Below, one piece after another: positions 8,894 through 13,455 of a DNA stretch of 17,657 nt. A program made the position numbers and the translations under genes. The first letter of the stretch is position 1. The number at the start of each line of letters is the position of its first letter. The notes under the pieces were generated by a model. That model was given only the letters and a program-made list of their open reading frames with translations, searched no databases and had not been told where the DNA came from. Source of the stretch: an uncultured Clostridium sp. (GTDB lineage Bacteria > Bacillota > Clostridia > Peptostreptococcales > Peptostreptococcaceae); NCBI GenBank assembly GCA_900539645.1, contig UQCY01000025.1, positions 1 through 17,657 on the forward strand. The letters are read 5' to 3'.

Positions 8894-8944
8894 ATGAAGA
8901 CTTTAAAGAATAAACAGAGACGATTTTATTTTAGCCACTATTAG
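8894..8944 (+). CDS. Leader peptide 1, aromatic-rich (Phe/Tyr) attenuator peptide
   Basis: A 16-codon ORF encoding MKTLKNKQRRFYFSHY and ending at TAG. GGGAG (8881-8885) sits 8 nt before the ATG. The last six codons are Phe-Tyr-Phe-Ser-His-Tyr, so four of six are aromatic. It lies between a strong promoter and two tandem terminators ahead of an amino acid transporter, and the codons for Phe, Ser and His overlap strand A of the alternative RNA structure (8931-8937). The peptide itself is probably non-functional: its translation rate would report charging of tRNA-Phe and tRNA-Tyr. A second, 14-codon leader ORF of the same design lies at 12117. A chance ORF is unlikely given the ribosome binding site, the start MKT shared with the second leader and the pairing. 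Confidence 0.8.
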   Translation: MKTLKNKQRRFYFSHY

Positions 8945-9068
8945 ATTGGTTTGTATCGATTCCATGCGAATAGGTACAGGCCGTTAGGATTTTACGACTG
9001 TATCTATGTTGGCTAAGTTTCGATTTGTTTGTTTTGTAAAGTTTTTATAAAATATATCGGCCACATAG
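8931..9068 (+). promoter_or_regulatory. Ribosome-mediated attenuator 1 (alternative RNA pairings)
   Basis: Strand A, TTAGCCA (8931-8937, inside the leader ORF), pairs with TGGCTAA (9010-9016). The overlapping strand B, CTATGTTGGC (9004-9013), can instead pair with strand C, GCCACATAG (9060-9068), with one bulged T. Strand C is the 5' arm of the first terminator. A:B and B:C exclude each other because they share 9010-9013. Two further hairpins lie between: 8952-8957 and 8959-8962 with 8968-8971 and 8973-8978, or alternatively 8973-8979 with 8998-9004. Inferred logic: a ribosome stalled on the Phe/Tyr codons covers A, B captures C, the terminator cannot form and the transporter is expressed. 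Full translation frees A, A captures B, and the terminator forms. No T-box or TRAP-type features are visible. Confidence 0.75.
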
Positions 9069-9091
9069 AACAAATACTATGTGGTTTTTTT
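9061..9091 (+). terminator. Attenuator terminator 1a
   Basis: Stem CCACATAG/CTATGTGG (9061-9068 with 9077-9084) with an 8-nt loop is followed by T7. It precedes the permease gene by about 150 bp, so it acts within the leader. Its 5' arm is strand C of the antiterminator. Confidence 0.88.
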
Positions 9092-9130
9092 ATATCTAGT
9101 TTTATACAAATTGTTTTTATATGAATATTG

Positions 9131-9169
9131 AAGCCGCATAGAAATATAAACTATGCGGCTTTTATTTTT
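9131..9169 (+). terminator. Attenuator terminator 1b (tandem copy)
   Basis: Stem AAGCCGCATAG/CTATGCGGCTT (9131-9141 with 9151-9161) with a 9-nt loop is followed by a T-rich tract interrupted by an A. Its 5' arm resembles that of terminator 1a, so strand B could in principle pair with it too. Its first 12 bases recur exactly at 12281-12292. Confidence 0.85.
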
Positions 9170-9241
9170 ACAATTTTCACTTTGAAAGTTTAGTTATTAA
9201 AAATAAAATCAAAAAAATTTTTAAGAGGAGTGTTTAAATTT

Positions 9242-10081
9242 ATGATTTCAGTAGTTACACAAAGTTTAATTTTAGCAATTATGGCGATTGGGGTATACAT
9301 TACCTTCAAAATACTAGACTTCCCAGATATGACAGCAGATGGAAGTTACACAATGGGAGCTGCAATATCAGCAGCAACACTTGCAGGAGGATTGAATCCA
9401 CTAGTTGGAGTACTACTTGCAGTAGTTGGAGGAGCTTTAGCCGGAATGGTTACAGGACTTCTTCATATAAAGGTTAAAATATCTAACCTATTATCAGGAA
9501 TACTTACAATGGGAATGCTTTACTCAATAAATCTTAGAATAATGGGAAAATCAAACATACCACTATTCACATTCCCTAACCTTTTCAAAGGTGATATACC
9601 ACCAGTAGTAATAGCACTTATATTTGTACTTATAGCAAAAATATTACTTGATTTATTCTTAAAAACAGGGCTTGGATACACTTTAAAAGGTGTTGGAGAT
9701 AATGAACAGATGATAAAATCACTTGGAATAAATATCGGAAATATAAAAATACTAGGACTTATGATATCAAATGCTTTAATATCTCTATCAGGAGCTCTAA
9801 TGGCACAGTTCCAAGGATTCGCAGATGTAACAATGGGAATTGGTACTCTAGTACTTGGTATAGCATCAATAATAATAGGACTTACACTATTCAAAAAAAT
9901 AAGAGCTGTCAAAGCTACAACAGCAATACTAATAGGTGCTTTCATATACCAGTTCACTATCTACTTCGCATTAAACTTAGGAATGCTTTCTACAGATCTA
10001 AAACTTATAAGTTCACTTGTAATAGTTGCATTCTTAGCAGTAGGTAATCTTCAGTTAAAGAAAAAAACAGCTAAAGAATAA
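9242..10081 (+). CDS. ABC transporter permease, TrpY-like (aromatic amino acid uptake)
   Basis: A 279-residue inner-membrane permease of the branched-chain amino acid/sugar type (BPD_transp_2), the channel subunit of a TrpXYZ-like uptake system. It is very hydrophobic, with roughly eight to nine membrane segments. The stretch GYTLKGVGDNEQMIKSLGINI (about 158-178) is the cytoplasmic coupling loop that docks to the ATPase, followed by SGALMAQFQGFADVTMGIG, typical of this family. The ORF can be extended to a GTG at 9230, but that GTG overlaps the ribosome binding site AGAGGAG, so I chose the ATG at 9242 although its 11-nt spacing is long. It is the first structural gene after attenuator 1, and the ATPase gene follows after 53 bp. 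The substrate Tyr/Phe is inferred from the leader peptides and the binding proteins. Confidence 0.88.
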   Translation: MISVVTQSLILAIMAIGVYITFKILDFPDMTADGSYTMGAAISAATLAGGLNPLVGVLLAVVGGALAGMVTGLLHIKVKISNLLSGILTMGMLYSINLRIMGKSNIPLFTFPNLFKGDIPPVVIALIFVLIAKILLDLFLKTGLGYTLKGVGDNEQMIKSLGINIGNIKILGLMISNALISLSGALMAQFQGFADVTMGIGTLVLGIASIIIGLTLFKKIRAVKATTAILIGAFIYQFTIYFALNLGMLSTDLKLISSLVIVAFLAVGNLQLKKKTAKE

Positions 10082-10134
10082 AATTTATATTAAAAATACA
10101 GATAGAATTAAAACATAAAAAAGGAGAGATAAAA

Positions 10135-10890
10135 ATGCTACAGCTTAAAAAAATAACTAAAACCTTCCCAAATCCATGTGGAGATGACAATACAGTTTTA
10201 AACAAACTTTCAATAGATATACCAGACGGAGAATTTGTTTGCATAGTAGGTAGTAATGGTACTGGTAAATCTACTCTATTAAATATAATCTCAGGATTAT
10301 TAAAAGAAACATCAGGACAGATTTTATTAGATGGAACAGATATCAGTAATCTTCCTGAACATAGAAAAACTCAGGTAATCAGTAGAGTTTTCCAAAATCC
10401 AAGCTTAGGAACTTGTCCTTCTATGACAGTTAGAGAAAATCTTTCTCTAGCATTAAACAAAGGAAAACTTTTAAATCTTAGAAAATGCCTAAGACATACA
10501 GATGATAAACTTGAATCTTTATTAGAAGGCATATCTCTTGATTTAAAAAAATTCCTTGATACTCAGGTTCAGTTCTTATCAGGAGGACAAAGACAGTCAT
10601 TATCGCTAATAATGTCTTGTTTAGCAGATCCAAAGGTACTACTACTTGATGAACATACAGCAGCTTTAGATCCAAAAACATCAAATGAGGTAATAGCTCT
10701 TACTAACGAAATTGTTAGAAAGAAAAACATAACTACTCTTATGGTTACTCATAACTTAAAACACGCTCTAGAATACGGAGATAGACTTGTTATGCTACAC
10801 AAAGGTGAAATAGTAATGGATGTTAACGGCGAAGATAAGAAAAAAATGACTGTTGAAGACATTTTAGAAAAATTCGAATACGCTGTATAA
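10135..10890 (+). CDS. ABC transporter ATP-binding protein, TrpZ-like
   Basis: A 251-residue cytoplasmic ATPase that powers the permease encoded just upstream. All nucleotide-binding motifs are present: Walker A GSNGTGKS at 39-46, Q-loop VFQNP with Gln at 87, signature LSGGQ at 148-152, Walker B VLLLDE at 168-173, D-loop AALD at 176-179 and the H-loop His at 206. Length is normal for a single-domain ATPase. The start ATG has AAGGAGA about 7 nt upstream. It lies in a run permease-ATPase-lipoprotein with gaps of about 50 bp and no terminators, so the three should be co-transcribed under attenuator 1. It is presumably shared by the second binding protein at 12466, which has no ATPase of its own nearby. 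Confidence 0.93.
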   Translation: MLQLKKITKTFPNPCGDDNTVLNKLSIDIPDGEFVCIVGSNGTGKSTLLNIISGLLKETSGQILLDGTDISNLPEHRKTQVISRVFQNPSLGTCPSMTVRENLSLALNKGKLLNLRKCLRHTDDKLESLLEGISLDLKKFLDTQVQFLSGGQRQSLSLIMSCLADPKVLLLDEHTAALDPKTSNEVIALTNEIVRKKNITTLMVTHNLKHALEYGDRLVMLHKGEIVMDVNGEDKKKMTVEDILEKFEYAV

Positions 10891-10937
10891 AAAATACCAA
10901 ATCAAATCAAAAAACTAAAAAAACGGAGGAAATTATT

Positions 10938-11936
10938 ATGAAAATCAACAAAAAACTAATCGCACTTATAACTACAGGAGTTTTATCCGTATCAATGCTT
11001 ACTGGATGTTCTGGTGGAGGTGAATCTTCTTCGAATGAAGTTAAGAAAGTTGGTATAACCCAGCTTGTAGAACATCCTTCTCTTGACCAGACTAAAGAAG
11101 GATTCATAAAAGCACTAGAAGATAACGGATATAAAGACGGAGAAAATGTAGAAATAGATTATCAGAATGCTCAGAACGACAATCCTACTTCTCAGACAAT
11201 AGCAAGTAATTTCGTAAATGATAAAAAAGATTTAATATACGCAATATCTACTCCATCAGCTCAGGCTGCATTCAACGCTACACAGGATATACCTGTACTA
11301 TTCACAGCTGTAACTGATCCGGTAGAAGCAGGACTAGTAAAATCTTTAGATAATAAAGATGGCGGAAATGTAACAGGAACATCAGACTTCCTTTCAATAG
11401 ACAAAACTATGTCTTTAGTTGAAAAATTAACTCCACAAGCTAAAAAAATAGCTGTTATCTACTCTACAAGTGAAGTTAACTCTAAAGTTCAGGTTGATTC
11501 TTTAAAAGAATACGCTAAAACTAAAGGTTGGGAAGTAATAGAAAAAGGAATCAGCGCATCTTCAGAAGTAAATCAGGCTATAACTTCAGTTGTTGGTAAA
11601 GCAGATGTTCTTTATGTTCCAACAGATAACCTAGTTGTATCTTCAATGCCTATAATAGCAAAAGTTGCTAATGAAAATAAATTACCTATAATAGCATCTG
11701 ATGAAGGTTCTGTAACATCTGGAGCTCTTGCTTGTGGTGGTGTTGACTATTATCAGCTAGGATACAAAACTGGTGAAATGGCAGTTCAGATATTAAAAGG
11801 TGAAAAACAGCCTTCTGATCTAGCTGTAGAAACTATGGACGAACCAGTTATAACTATGAATGAAGATACTATGAAAACTTTAGGCATAGAAAAACCAGCT
11901 GATATGGACGTAAAACTTGTAAAAACAGAAAACTAA
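10938..11936 (+). CDS. Substrate-binding lipoprotein 1, TrpX-like (ABC_sub_bind family)
   Basis: A 332-residue extracellular solute-binding lipoprotein. The signal peptide has a basic N-terminus, a hydrophobic core and the lipobox LTGC with the lipidated Cys at 24. A Gly/Ser-rich linker follows, and the mature two-lobed domain starts at KKVGITQLVEHPSLDQ. Conserved blocks include YQNAQNDNPTSQTIASNF, DLIYAISTPSAQAA, PVLFTAVTDPVEAGLV and VTGTSDFLS. The family includes pneumococcal TrpX and the C. difficile lipoprotein CD0873, reported to bind tyrosine and act as an adhesin (from memory). The start ATG has CGGAGG 8 nt upstream. It is the third gene of the operon, and I see no terminator between its stop and the next promoter at 11985. 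A close paralogue follows at 12466. Confidence 0.92.
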   Translation: MKINKKLIALITTGVLSVSMLTGCSGGGESSSNEVKKVGITQLVEHPSLDQTKEGFIKALEDNGYKDGENVEIDYQNAQNDNPTSQTIASNFVNDKKDLIYAISTPSAQAAFNATQDIPVLFTAVTDPVEAGLVKSLDNKDGGNVTGTSDFLSIDKTMSLVEKLTPQAKKIAVIYSTSEVNSKVQVDSLKEYAKTKGWEVIEKGISASSEVNQAITSVVGKADVLYVPTDNLVVSSMPIIAKVANENKLPIIASDEGSVTSGALACGGVDYYQLGYKTGEMAVQILKGEKQPSDLAVETMDEPVITMNEDTMKTLGIEKPADMDVKLVKTEN

Positions 11937-11984: not shown

Positions 11985-12013
11985 TTGACACTATGCATTT
12001 TATATTTTAGAAT
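11985..12013 (+). promoter_or_regulatory. Second sigma-A promoter, for leader 2 and lipoprotein 2
   Basis: TTGACA (11985-11990), a 17-nt spacer and TAGAAT (12008-12013) form a near-consensus promoter with start near 12020. It begins about 49 bp after the stop codon of lipoprotein 1. Lipoprotein 2 therefore has its own transcript, although read-through from the first promoter would also have to pass attenuator 2. Confidence 0.87.
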
Positions 12014-12116
12014 ATATACAAGTTCAAAAGATAATCAATTTTCAGTAAATTAAAATAATTGTAAAATATTATTTCAAGAACTAATAAATTATAACGAATT
12101 AAAAGGAGAAACTATC

Positions 12117-12161
12117 ATGAAAACTAGACTTTATTATTACTATTATAACCTATATATTTAG
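12117..12161 (+). CDS. Leader peptide 2, tyrosine-run attenuator peptide
   Basis: A 14-codon ORF encoding MKTRLYYYYYNLYI and ending at TAG. AAGGAG (12103-12108) lies 8 nt before the ATG. Codons 6-10 are five consecutive Tyr codons (TAT TAT TAC TAT TAT) and codon 13 is a sixth. No other amino acid is repeated to that degree, so the peptide would report specifically on charged tRNA-Tyr. The Tyr codons 9-10 and the following Asn-Leu codons are strand A of the alternative RNA fold. It shares the start MKT, the ribosome binding site spacing and the downstream layout with leader 1, so the two probably arose by duplication. The product itself is unlikely to have a function. Expression cannot be proven from sequence. 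Confidence 0.88.
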   Translation: MKTRLYYYYYNLYI

Positions 12162-12310
12162 AGGCTGTATCTAATAAAAACACTTTGTACGGATACAGAC
12201 CTCGGTAAATACAATCCAGGGCTTTGTGTCTGTGCAGGTTATAATAAGTCAATTTTTATGAAGTTTCATTACTTATATATAAGCCGCATAGATCGAGAAT
12301 TATGTGGCTT
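12141..12310 (+). promoter_or_regulatory. Ribosome-mediated tyrosine attenuator 2 (alternative RNA pairings)
   Basis: Strand A, TATTATAACCT (12141-12151, inside the Tyr leader), is perfectly complementary over 11 bp to AGGTTATAATA (12236-12246). Strand B, TGTGCAGGTT (12231-12240), can instead pair with AGCCGCATA (12282-12290), the 5' arm of the terminator, with one bulged A and two G-U pairs. The two pairings share 12236-12240 and exclude each other. In addition CTGTATC (12165-12171) pairs with GATACAG (12192-12198), and an alternative TACAGAC (12194-12200) with GTCTGTG (12228-12234) competes. Inferred logic: a ribosome waiting at the Tyr codons hides A, so B pairs with C and prevents termination. 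With plentiful Tyr-tRNA, or without translation, A:B forms and transcription stops. The layout mirrors attenuator 1. Confidence 0.8.
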
Positions 12311-12318
12311 TCTTTTTT
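12281..12318 (+). terminator. Attenuator terminator 2a
   Basis: Stem AAGCCGCATA/TATGTGGCTT (12281-12290 with 12301-12310, one G-U) with an extra closing G-U pair and an 8-nt loop is followed by TCTTTTTT. It lies about 150 bp before the lipoprotein 2 gene. Its 5' arm is strand C of the antiterminator. Confidence 0.87.
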
Positions 12319-12338
12319 ATAGTAATATAATAATCAAT

Positions 12339-12378
12339 AAAAGCCATGTAGTCTTAAACTATATGTCTTTTATTTTTT
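12339..12378 (+). terminator. Attenuator terminator 2b (tandem, degenerate)
   Basis: AAAAGCCATGTAG (12339-12351) pairs with CTATATGTCTTTT (12359-12371), with one C-T mismatch and one G-U, around a 7-nt loop. ATTTTTT follows. It is weaker than terminator 2a but repeats the tandem arrangement seen in leader 1. Confidence 0.65.
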
Positions 12379-12465
12379 CCCTGGAACTCGAATCATAACA
12401 TTAAAAAATTAAAAATAGCATAATCGAAACTTCAAATAAAATAAATTAACTTGGAGGAAAATAAA

Positions 12466-13455
12466 TTGAAATTAAATAAAAAATTATTATCTTTAGTATT
12501 ATCATTAACATTAGGAGTAACATTACTTACAGGATGCTCAGGTAGCAGTGAATCTTCTGGTTCAACTGATGAAGTTAAAAAAGTTGGTATAACTCAGTTA
12601 GTTGAACATCCAGCACTTGATCAGGCAAAAGAAGGATTTGTAGAAGGACTTAAAGAAAACGGATTTGTAGAAGGTGAAAACTTAGAAATAGATTTCCAGA
12701 ATGCTCAGAACGACAACCCTACTTCTCAGACAATAGCAAGCAACTTTGTAAACGATAAAAAAGACCTAATATTCGCAATATCTACTCCATCTGCTCAGGC
12801 AGCATTAAACGCTACTCAGGATATCCCAATAGTGTTCACAGCAGTTACAGATGCAGTTGAAGCAGGACTTGTAAAAAGCAATGAATCATCAGAAAATAAT
12901 GTAACAGGTACATCTGACGCAATACCAGTAGCTAAAGCATTAGAACTTATAAAAAAATTCGTACCAGATGTTAAAACAATAGGTGTTGTATGCAATACAA
13001 GTGAAATAAACTCTAAATTACAGGTAGATGCTTTAAGAGAAGCAGCTGAAAAAGAAGGAATAAAAGTAGTAGACAAAGGTGCAACTCAGGCAAATGAAGT
13101 TAACCAGGCAGTTGCAGCAGTTGCAAAAGAAGCAGATGTAATATTCGCTCCTACAGATAACTTAGTAGCATCTTCAATGCCAATAATAACTAAAGTAGCA
13201 ACTGAAAACAAAATACCAGTTATAGGTTCTGAAGAAGGACATGTTGAAAATGGTGCACTAGCTTGCAACGGAATAAGCTACAAAGAACTTGGTAAAAAAG
13301 CTGGAGAAATGGCAGCTCAGATACTAAAAGGTGAAAAACAGCCTTCTGAAATACCTGTAACTACACTTGATGAAACTGAAACAATAATAAACAAATCAAC
13401 AATGGAAACACTTGGAATAAAAGATCCTCAGATAGAAAACGCAACATTTAAATAA
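12466..13455 (+). CDS. Substrate-binding lipoprotein 2, TrpX-like paralogue
   Basis: A 329-residue lipoprotein closely similar to lipoprotein 1 along its whole length. The stretches NAQNDNPTSQTIASNFVNDKKDL and STPSAQAA are shared, and only short substitutions separate them. Signal peptide and lipobox LTGC place the lipidated Cys at residue 24, exactly as in the paralogue. GGAGG (12453-12457) lies 8 nt before a TTG at 12466, which gives the canonical MKLNKKLL signal peptide start; the longer ORF from 12451 would begin inside the ribosome binding site, so I reject it. The gene has its own promoter and Tyr attenuator and no linked permease or ATPase, so it probably delivers substrate to the transporter encoded at 9242-10890. 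Its role may be specificity for tyrosine or raising binding protein dosage. An adhesin role, as reported for CD0873, is possible but not visible. Confidence 0.92.
   Translation: MKLNKKLLSLVLSLTLGVTLLTGCSGSSESSGSTDEVKKVGITQLVEHPALDQAKEGFVEGLKENGFVEGENLEIDFQNAQNDNPTSQTIASNFVNDKKDLIFAISTPSAQAALNATQDIPIVFTAVTDAVEAGLVKSNESSENNVTGTSDAIPVAKALELIKKFVPDVKTIGVVCNTSEINSKLQVDALREAAEKEGIKVVDKGATQANEVNQAVAAVAKEADVIFAPTDNLVASSMPIITKVATENKIPVIGSEEGHVENGALACNGISYKELGKKAGEMAAQILKGEKQPSEIPVTTLDETETIINKSTMETLGIKDPQIENATFK

Follow-up and report, generated by a model that had tools for sequence, protein, structure and literature searches.

Leader-peptide attenuation is a classical kind of regulation. Attenuators of the E. 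coli trp/pheA type consist of a leader ORF with control codons, mutually exclusive hairpins and a final terminator. In Peptostreptococcaceae, including C. difficile, histidine leader attenuators with His-run peptides ahead of his operons were predicted in 2022 (PMC9413887); the available part of that report is about histidine and mentions no such leader for Tyr, Phe or Trp. For tyrosine genes of other species, regulation by T-boxes is described (PMC1262725, available portion). The uORFC-13-1 motif, found ahead of Acholeplasma aroF, is reported in the accessible part of its source only from Acholeplasma and environmental sequences (PMC8632094); judged from that description, it shares with the leaders presented here a Phe-codon uORF and a terminator ahead of an aromatic-pathway gene.

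Two Rfam families are also relevant. RF04312, the ‘trpB motif’ (SRC-39-1), is an orphan of more than 900 representatives; its discoverers rated it a strong riboswitch candidate but, in the text available, left room for a classic attenuator (PMC11109978). RF02863 (‘Enterococcus sRNA_2410’) is represented in E. faecium by an RNA of 195 nt according to RNA-seq, which gave two transcripts on Northern blots (PMC5593968, part of the paper). In the open-access literature searched, which lacks most subscription journals, neither a Tyr leader-peptide attenuator of the kind described below nor an account of RF04312 or RF02863 as leader-peptide attenuators turned up; the accessible text of PMC7438776 contains nothing on such a leader. 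The original prediction knew of no description of a Tyr attenuator of this kind. This held for the literature covered, but the His versions of 2022 and the likeness of the 3′ half to the ‘trpB motif’ narrow the claim.

The leader and the transporter genes

The window, which is the whole 17,657-nt stretch of uncultured Clostridium sp. DNA analysed here, has Peptacetobacter as its closest named relatives and most likely comes from this genus. The closest locus found (G033) is 89.2% identical over 4.8 kb and encodes an identical leader peptide. The leader in question lies between the genes of two PF04392 binding proteins, SBP1 (10938-11936) and SBP2, the former being encoded together with a PF02653 permease (Table 1). 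It very probably acts as a ribosome-mediated attenuator of transcription, with charged tRNA-Tyr as the signal and the gene at 12466 as the target.

Table 1. Features of the two leaders and adjoining genes in the window.
Feature	Position	Strand	Details and basis
Sigma-A-type promoter of the leader, TTGACA-17-TAGAAT	11985..12013	+	Predicted; consensus scan, 11/12 bases
Ribosome binding site of the leader ORF, AAGGAGA	12103..12109	+	7 bases ahead of the start codon; sequence
Leader ORF MKTRLYYYYYNLYI, then stop	12117..12161	+	Tyr control codons 12132-12146 and 12153-12155; sequence
Strand A, within the control codons	12141..12151	+	Pairs with B; covariation in 29 leaders
Strand 1, from the last base of the stop codon	12161..12171	+	Pairs with strand 2
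Strand 2	12187..12203	+	Partner is 1 or 3
Strand 3	12220..12235	+	Pairs with strand 2
Strand B	12236..12246	+	Pairs with A, 11 bp
Strand 3B (antiterminator)	12230..12240	+	Captures the terminator 5′ arm 12282-12291; 98.6% of cells paired in 29 leaders
Intrinsic terminator	12281..12319	+	4a 12281-12291, 4b 12300-12310, U tract; 11 pairs in 12281-12310
SBP2, substrate-binding lipoprotein, regulated gene	12466..13455	+	PF04392, homologue of CD0873 (6hni)
Second leader ORF MKTLKNKQRRFYFSHY (FYFSHY), then stop	8894..8944	+	Upstream of the permease gene
Second attenuator RNA	8948..9092	+	1 8948-8957, 2 8973-8982, 3/B 8996-9017, terminator 9059-9086 and U tract; sequence
Second tandem terminator-like hairpin, arm GCCGCATAG	9131..9169	+	Ahead of the permease gene; sequence
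Aromatic amino acid ABC transporter (permease, ATPase, SBP1)	9230..11936	+	Substrate inferred

The ORF with its own ribosome binding site, set between a promoter and a terminator, had been recognised beforehand, and sequence and scans located all of these elements where they had been placed. The scans by themselves are near chance, with 12 promoter-like sites against 8.6 in shuffles and one terminator against 0.8. The claimed complementarity is exact, 12141-12151 being the reverse complement of 12236-12246 over 11 bp. Since a Watson–Crick helix of at least 11 bp joining the ORF to the remainder of the leader arose in five of 1000 dinucleotide shuffles (about 0.005), the A:B helix alone is only suggestive. 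On these figures, an AT-rich intergenic ORF lying by chance beside an ordinary terminator might be considered; conservation and covariation across 29 leaders and recurrence ahead of related genes, however, make this exceedingly improbable. The folding z-score of the leader is -4.39. The proposed capture of 12282-12290 by 12231-12240 is real and is better written as 12230-12240 : 12282-12291, comprising 10 pairs with A12236 bulged.

The asserted lack of a T-box was borne out: no T-box or other Rfam family reached its gathering score in the whole window or in six related loci, and no T-box model matched at an E-value of 5 or better within 12000-12420. T-boxes do control tyrosine genes elsewhere (PMC1262725, in its available portion), but this leader, only about 200 nt long, is taken up by the ORF and the strands, and direct reading of tRNA-Tyr by a T-box has next to no probability here.

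A second leader of the same family (8894-9092), missing from the original prediction, precedes the permease gene; its strands follow in the same order as in the SBP2 leader and are succeeded by a terminator. It scores 139.9 bits with covariance model R1, though it is itself among the rows from which R1 was built. Downstream of the SBP2 terminator, a weaker hairpin with a U-rich tail is present at 12340-12379; it is perhaps a relic of the tandem terminator known from permease leaders.

Conservation and covariation of the five helices

Twenty-nine transporter-type leaders were aligned with MAFFT, without structural information. In the order A:B, 1:2, 2:3, 3B:4a and 4a:4b, 95.2%, 91.5%, 90.2%, 98.6% and 99.0% of the cells are paired. 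The covariation scores, in the same order, are 0.259, 0.235, 0.226, 0.271 and 0.285, and the corresponding means of the shuffles are 0.114, 0.183, 0.197, 0.232 and 0.228; the relatedness of the sequences inflates these scores, and a single row of the alignment served to choose the helix columns. Each observed score was reached by at most one of 500 shuffles, and helices slid by 1-3 columns gave at most 0.145, all below the observed values. Pairs with changes on both sides are not unusually numerous (64, 143, 307, 287 and 51 of 500 shuffles did as well); what supports the helices is how many cells are compensated and what percentage is paired.

Despite strand A being coding, changes on both sides occur in four of the eight A:B pairs, an example being AGCC (Ser codon)/GGCT to AACC (Asn codon)/GGTT. 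The comparative check proposed at the outset, on orthologous leaders and A:B covariation, gave a favourable result, with the Tyr run kept and the A:B score above all 500 shuffles. The peptide motif YYYYY[NS]LYI, followed by the stop codon, is kept in three loci (L001, L002 and L096), in two of which (L001 and L002) the leader precedes an SBP2 orthologue. The earlier suggestion that all the parts of ribosome-mediated tyrosine attenuation are present stands as regards the parts and their conservation. Its three-strand switch was replaced by a five-helix model because two further strands, 1 and 2, are conserved (12161-12171 and 12187-12203, both lacking from that suggestion), and a ribosome at the stop codon matters too.

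Predicted switch

From these parts we infer stalling, readthrough and their dependence on tyrosine, as follows. With tyrosine in short supply, the ribosome would stall in the Tyr run, covering strand A and leaving strand 1 free; 1:2 would pair, and strand 3B, thereby left free, would capture 4a and permit readthrough. With ample tyrosine, a ribosome at the stop codon would mask the abutting strand 1, and 2:3 and the terminator would form. When no ribosome is present, or after its release, A:B, continuous with 2:3, would form, again followed by the terminator. The re-coded scaffold may serve Phe, Trp and His likewise. In comparison with the E. coli trp/pheA type, the family has one extra exclusive step, a stall leading to 1:2 while the antiterminator is 3B:4a, and a strand within the control codons that is predicted to shut the operon off when translation is lacking.

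The folding calculations used RNA ending directly behind 4a, a length at which the terminator is not yet able to close, with the ribosome footprint masked (footprints +9, +12 and +15). At +12, the antiterminator probability of the 29 leaders averages 0.15 when they are free of ribosomes, 0.74 when the ribosome is on the aromatic run and 0.13 when it is on the stop codon; the run value exceeds both the stop and the free values in 29/29 leaders at all three footprints. The window leader, with 0.21 when free, 0.72-0.81 at codons 6-10 and 0.39 at the stop codon, has one of the weaker switches, as its stop value indicates. Stalls at early codons raise the antiterminator as well (mean 0.56 at +12), and the Tyr codons are therefore not singled out by the energy model alone. 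Allowing one codon on either side, the peak falls inside the run in 12, 20 and 25 of the 29 leaders at +9, +12 and +15.

The calculation was extended to a set of 90 matches, composed of 28 of the 42 from one model search and 62 of the 71 remaining from a second. That second search had given 91 matches, of which 20 were dropped (19 on the opposite strand over terminators and one on a second hairpin); the set excludes leader repeats, opposite-strand and second-hairpin matches and the weaker Lactobacillaceae matches. Eighty-nine loci were carried on, L077 having no leader ORF, and the switch was evaluated in 84 of them, as five had no usable terminator. The means are 0.29 free, 0.53 over the control codons and 0.25 at the stop codon, while the best control codon averages 0.75, a maximum and hence biased upward. 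The predicted switch is weak or absent in the His and several BrnQ-type leaders. Trp leaders (24 of 28 evaluated) give 0.49 free, 0.67 on the Trp codons and 0.35 at the stop codon, with the run above the stop value in 20/24 and above the free value in 23/24, a weaker contrast than in Tyr/Phe leaders.

Measured against what an attenuator comprises, the locus has a short ORF with a ribosome binding site, rich in codons of the regulated amino acid, and a terminator with a mutually exclusive antiterminator, both conserved. In the energy model, the position of the ribosome decides the fold, early codons scoring too, and homology and pocket residues point to a regulated gene handling the same amino acid.

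Codon-specific stalling might also be aided by the nascent peptide, as in arrest-type leaders, instead of depending on empty A sites alone. In a hand-picked set of 183 leaders, 120 have Leu-Asn ahead of the first control residue at a distance of four residues or less, whereas 200 shuffles average 33.8 and reach at most 47. Left out of this set were L186, L188 and L190, which have neither an aromatic nor a His run, and other loci, the majority of them repeats or ORF-less. The dipeptide is found in all four specificities (62/81 Tyr-dominant, 24/44 Phe, 20/33 His and 14/25 Trp leaders), and its enrichment with five different Leu codons in use points to selection on the peptide itself. The leader of the window, though, has no Leu-Asn before its run, and shared descent among the leaders or an RNA constraint would be other sources of the pattern; a contribution of the nascent chain is thus quite unlikely, if still appreciable.

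Distribution and re-coding of the scaffold

Two covariance models were used, R1 built from nine leaders and R2 from 47. R1 matched 43 of the 71 genomes in the family of P. hominis (E of at most 0.01). With R2 (E of at most 0.001), matches were found in 70/297 genomes in the order of P. hominis, presumed to be that of the window, in 181/295 in the order of the Lactobacillus locus L016 and in 4/398 sampled across the phylum; the large searches used stricter filters, with weak matches lost. Rfam's own RF04312 model matched 87 of 148 genomes in the order of L016, 35 of them over the cut-off, and five of 398 in the phylum-wide sample, one over the cut-off. The family is therefore not universal in the phylum. 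Two of the weak RF04312 genomes (L222 and L224) look spurious, having no fitting leader, and were set aside; of the other two, the L223 match coincides with the terminators of an already known leader, and L221 has a Phe leader. Among viral contigs no relative was found. An SD-led fitting ORF is absent in 1/90, 3/65 and 3/40 rows of three locus sets.

The scaffold recurs re-coded, with Tyr, Phe, Trp or His codons. Leaders ahead of permease genes are also found in L002, Asaccharospora (L003) and C. difficile (L007-L009). Genes behind the scaffold, named by Pfam on one or two representatives per type and otherwise from a similar protein start, include BrnQ-type carriers (PF05525, leader KLNIYYYFSYFS), Na+ symporters (PF00209, leader KLNNYYYSYYR), an NhaC-type antiporter (PF03553, leader NYYYYYR) and, with leader LNHHHHHR, hisZ-hisG and a PF00497 binding protein; aroE, DAHP synthase and trpB are likewise represented. 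The Firmicutes His leaders thus far described share this scaffold by covariance model, if weakly with R1 (41.7 bits, L088).

Several loci deserve separate mention. ‘Branched-chain’ carriers of BrnQ type stand behind Tyr/Phe leaders in L106, L108-L114, L123, L124, L128-L130 and L133-L135 (Pfam was run on L106 only); their codons predict aromatic substrates. The His-operon leaders L136, L137 and L139 have mixed control codons, YYHHH. In L186, L188 and L190, the scaffold ahead of a Na+ symporter carries leader MKITNSKTTITSQFNRVLLLVADLI (RVLLLVADLI) or a one-residue variant, with no aromatic or His run; these may be Leu/Val versions. The Lactobacillus loci L014-L017 and L026 have a 4a:4b hairpin without a U tract; most of the stretches read continue into another hairpin, which does have one, as if the cascade had gained two more strands.

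Relation to RF04312 and RF02863

The window scores 37.3 bits with RF04312 against a cut-off of 59, and is related to this family while not being a member by Rfam's rule; seven of eight relatives scanned match at 36-56 bits. Common to the two are the 2:3 hairpin, the antiterminator in its right shoulder and the terminator, whereas the 107-position Rfam model excludes the leader peptide and strands A and 1. Given that the 3′ half (2:3 hairpin, B and terminator) matches a strong riboswitch candidate, albeit below the cut-off, a small-molecule riboswitch binding an aromatic amino acid directly, with an incidental ORF, could be considered, as proposed for the ‘trpB motif’. In all 29 above-cut-off RF04312 loci fetched, however (drawn from the 37 above-cut-off hits listed), an SD-led ORF with one or more Trp codons, for example MNRLSKPIKELNSSWQNWRR, ends 9-21 bases before the motif. 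In a control on 28 of these loci, a similar finder gave Trp ORFs in 26/28 at the leader position against 0/28 on the opposite strand and 1/28 and 0/28 at 400 and 700 nt upstream. Moreover, the codons vary with the regulated gene while the RNA core is constant, and a conserved strand sits inside the codons. A riboswitch of this sort is very improbable, and attenuation by a translating ribosome is preferred for these leaders as well.

RF02863 is above its cut-off in 13 of 20 sources scanned, and its matches lie on Tyr/Phe leaders ahead of aroE, DAHP synthase and SBP genes; the window falls below the 61-bit cut-off. Filed as an sRNA gene, the family lies on leaders in L195-L203, L205, L206, L208 and L016. 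The two Northern transcripts of the E. faecium RNA fit a terminated leader RNA. Both RF04312 and RF02863 look like leader-peptide attenuators.

Control codons and substrates of the regulated genes

SBP2 is homologous to CD0873 of C. difficile (6hni, E 2e-115), a protein whose binding of tyrosine was demonstrated by thermal shift and in a crystal structure; this species makes its p-cresol from tyrosine (PMC6816091, available part). In an alignment read with the residue list given there, SBP2 retains both the pocket Tyr and the Glu in contact with the hydroxyl group of the bound tyrosine. SBP1, encoded behind the Phe/Tyr leader, shares this Tyr but carries Asp in place of the Glu. It matches CD0873 better than SBP2 does (420.9 against 388.5 bits), which counts against the tyrosine-sensing reading. 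Whether a leader is of the Tyr or the Phe type cannot be told from the Glu position, Glu being present behind Phe leaders too.

In two loci (L294 and L295), a CD0873 orthologue, 98.8% and 97.2% identical over 252 residues, stands behind the five-Tyr leader MNTLLNNKKYYYYYSHYF, and a paralogue of about 75% identity behind MKTLLNKQVRFFSSQFS; on the strength of the orthologue's identity, these loci were taken as C. difficile. The same Tyr leader MNTLLNNKKYYYYYSHYF precedes a permease gene in C. difficile L008 and L009. In C. difficile L007, the CD0873 orthologue is found behind a Phe leader instead. This apparent counterexample was discounted: near-identical tandem operons with Phe and Tyr leaders were likely collapsed in assembly, since in the same assembly (strain 173070) the middle piece, with the Tyr leader, lies on a 3.7-kb contig of its own (L009).

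The position of the pocket Tyr was compared with the leader codons as well. Trp leaders go with a pocket Gln, the residue in the tryptophan-bound structure, in 28/28 SBP rows, and Tyr/Phe leaders with a pocket Tyr in 80 of the 81 rows with a readable residue, the remaining one having Phe; the proteins are closely related and a few are repeated, so these counts are not independent. The counts come from 115 SBP rows with an upstream leader, six without a residue at the tested column being left out; L230 was moved to its Trp leader, the two proteins of L007 were included and at least three rows repeat a gene. As far as sequence allows, the leader codons match the predicted function of the regulated gene.

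Significance

Apparently new are the Tyr/Phe version, strand A within the control codons, the substrates predicted for the transporters and the connection with two orphan Rfam families. CD0873 of C. difficile is tied to a tyrosine-sensing leader by these findings. The leader codons predict the substrates of transporters annotated as branched-chain (BrnQ) carriers, Na+/neurotransmitter symporters and generic ABC systems, and both the orphan riboswitch candidate RF04312 and the Enterococcus ‘sRNA’ RF02863 receive a specific, testable function. More broadly, and as a tentative proposal that we consider unlikely in its entirety, one re-codable scaffold, whose control codons are themselves a switch strand, might be a T-box equivalent of the leader-peptide type, serving aromatic amino acids and histidine in Clostridia-type and Lactobacillales genomes; it would give RF04312 and RF02863 their function, and the conserved Leu-Asn may make stalling dependent on the nascent chain too.
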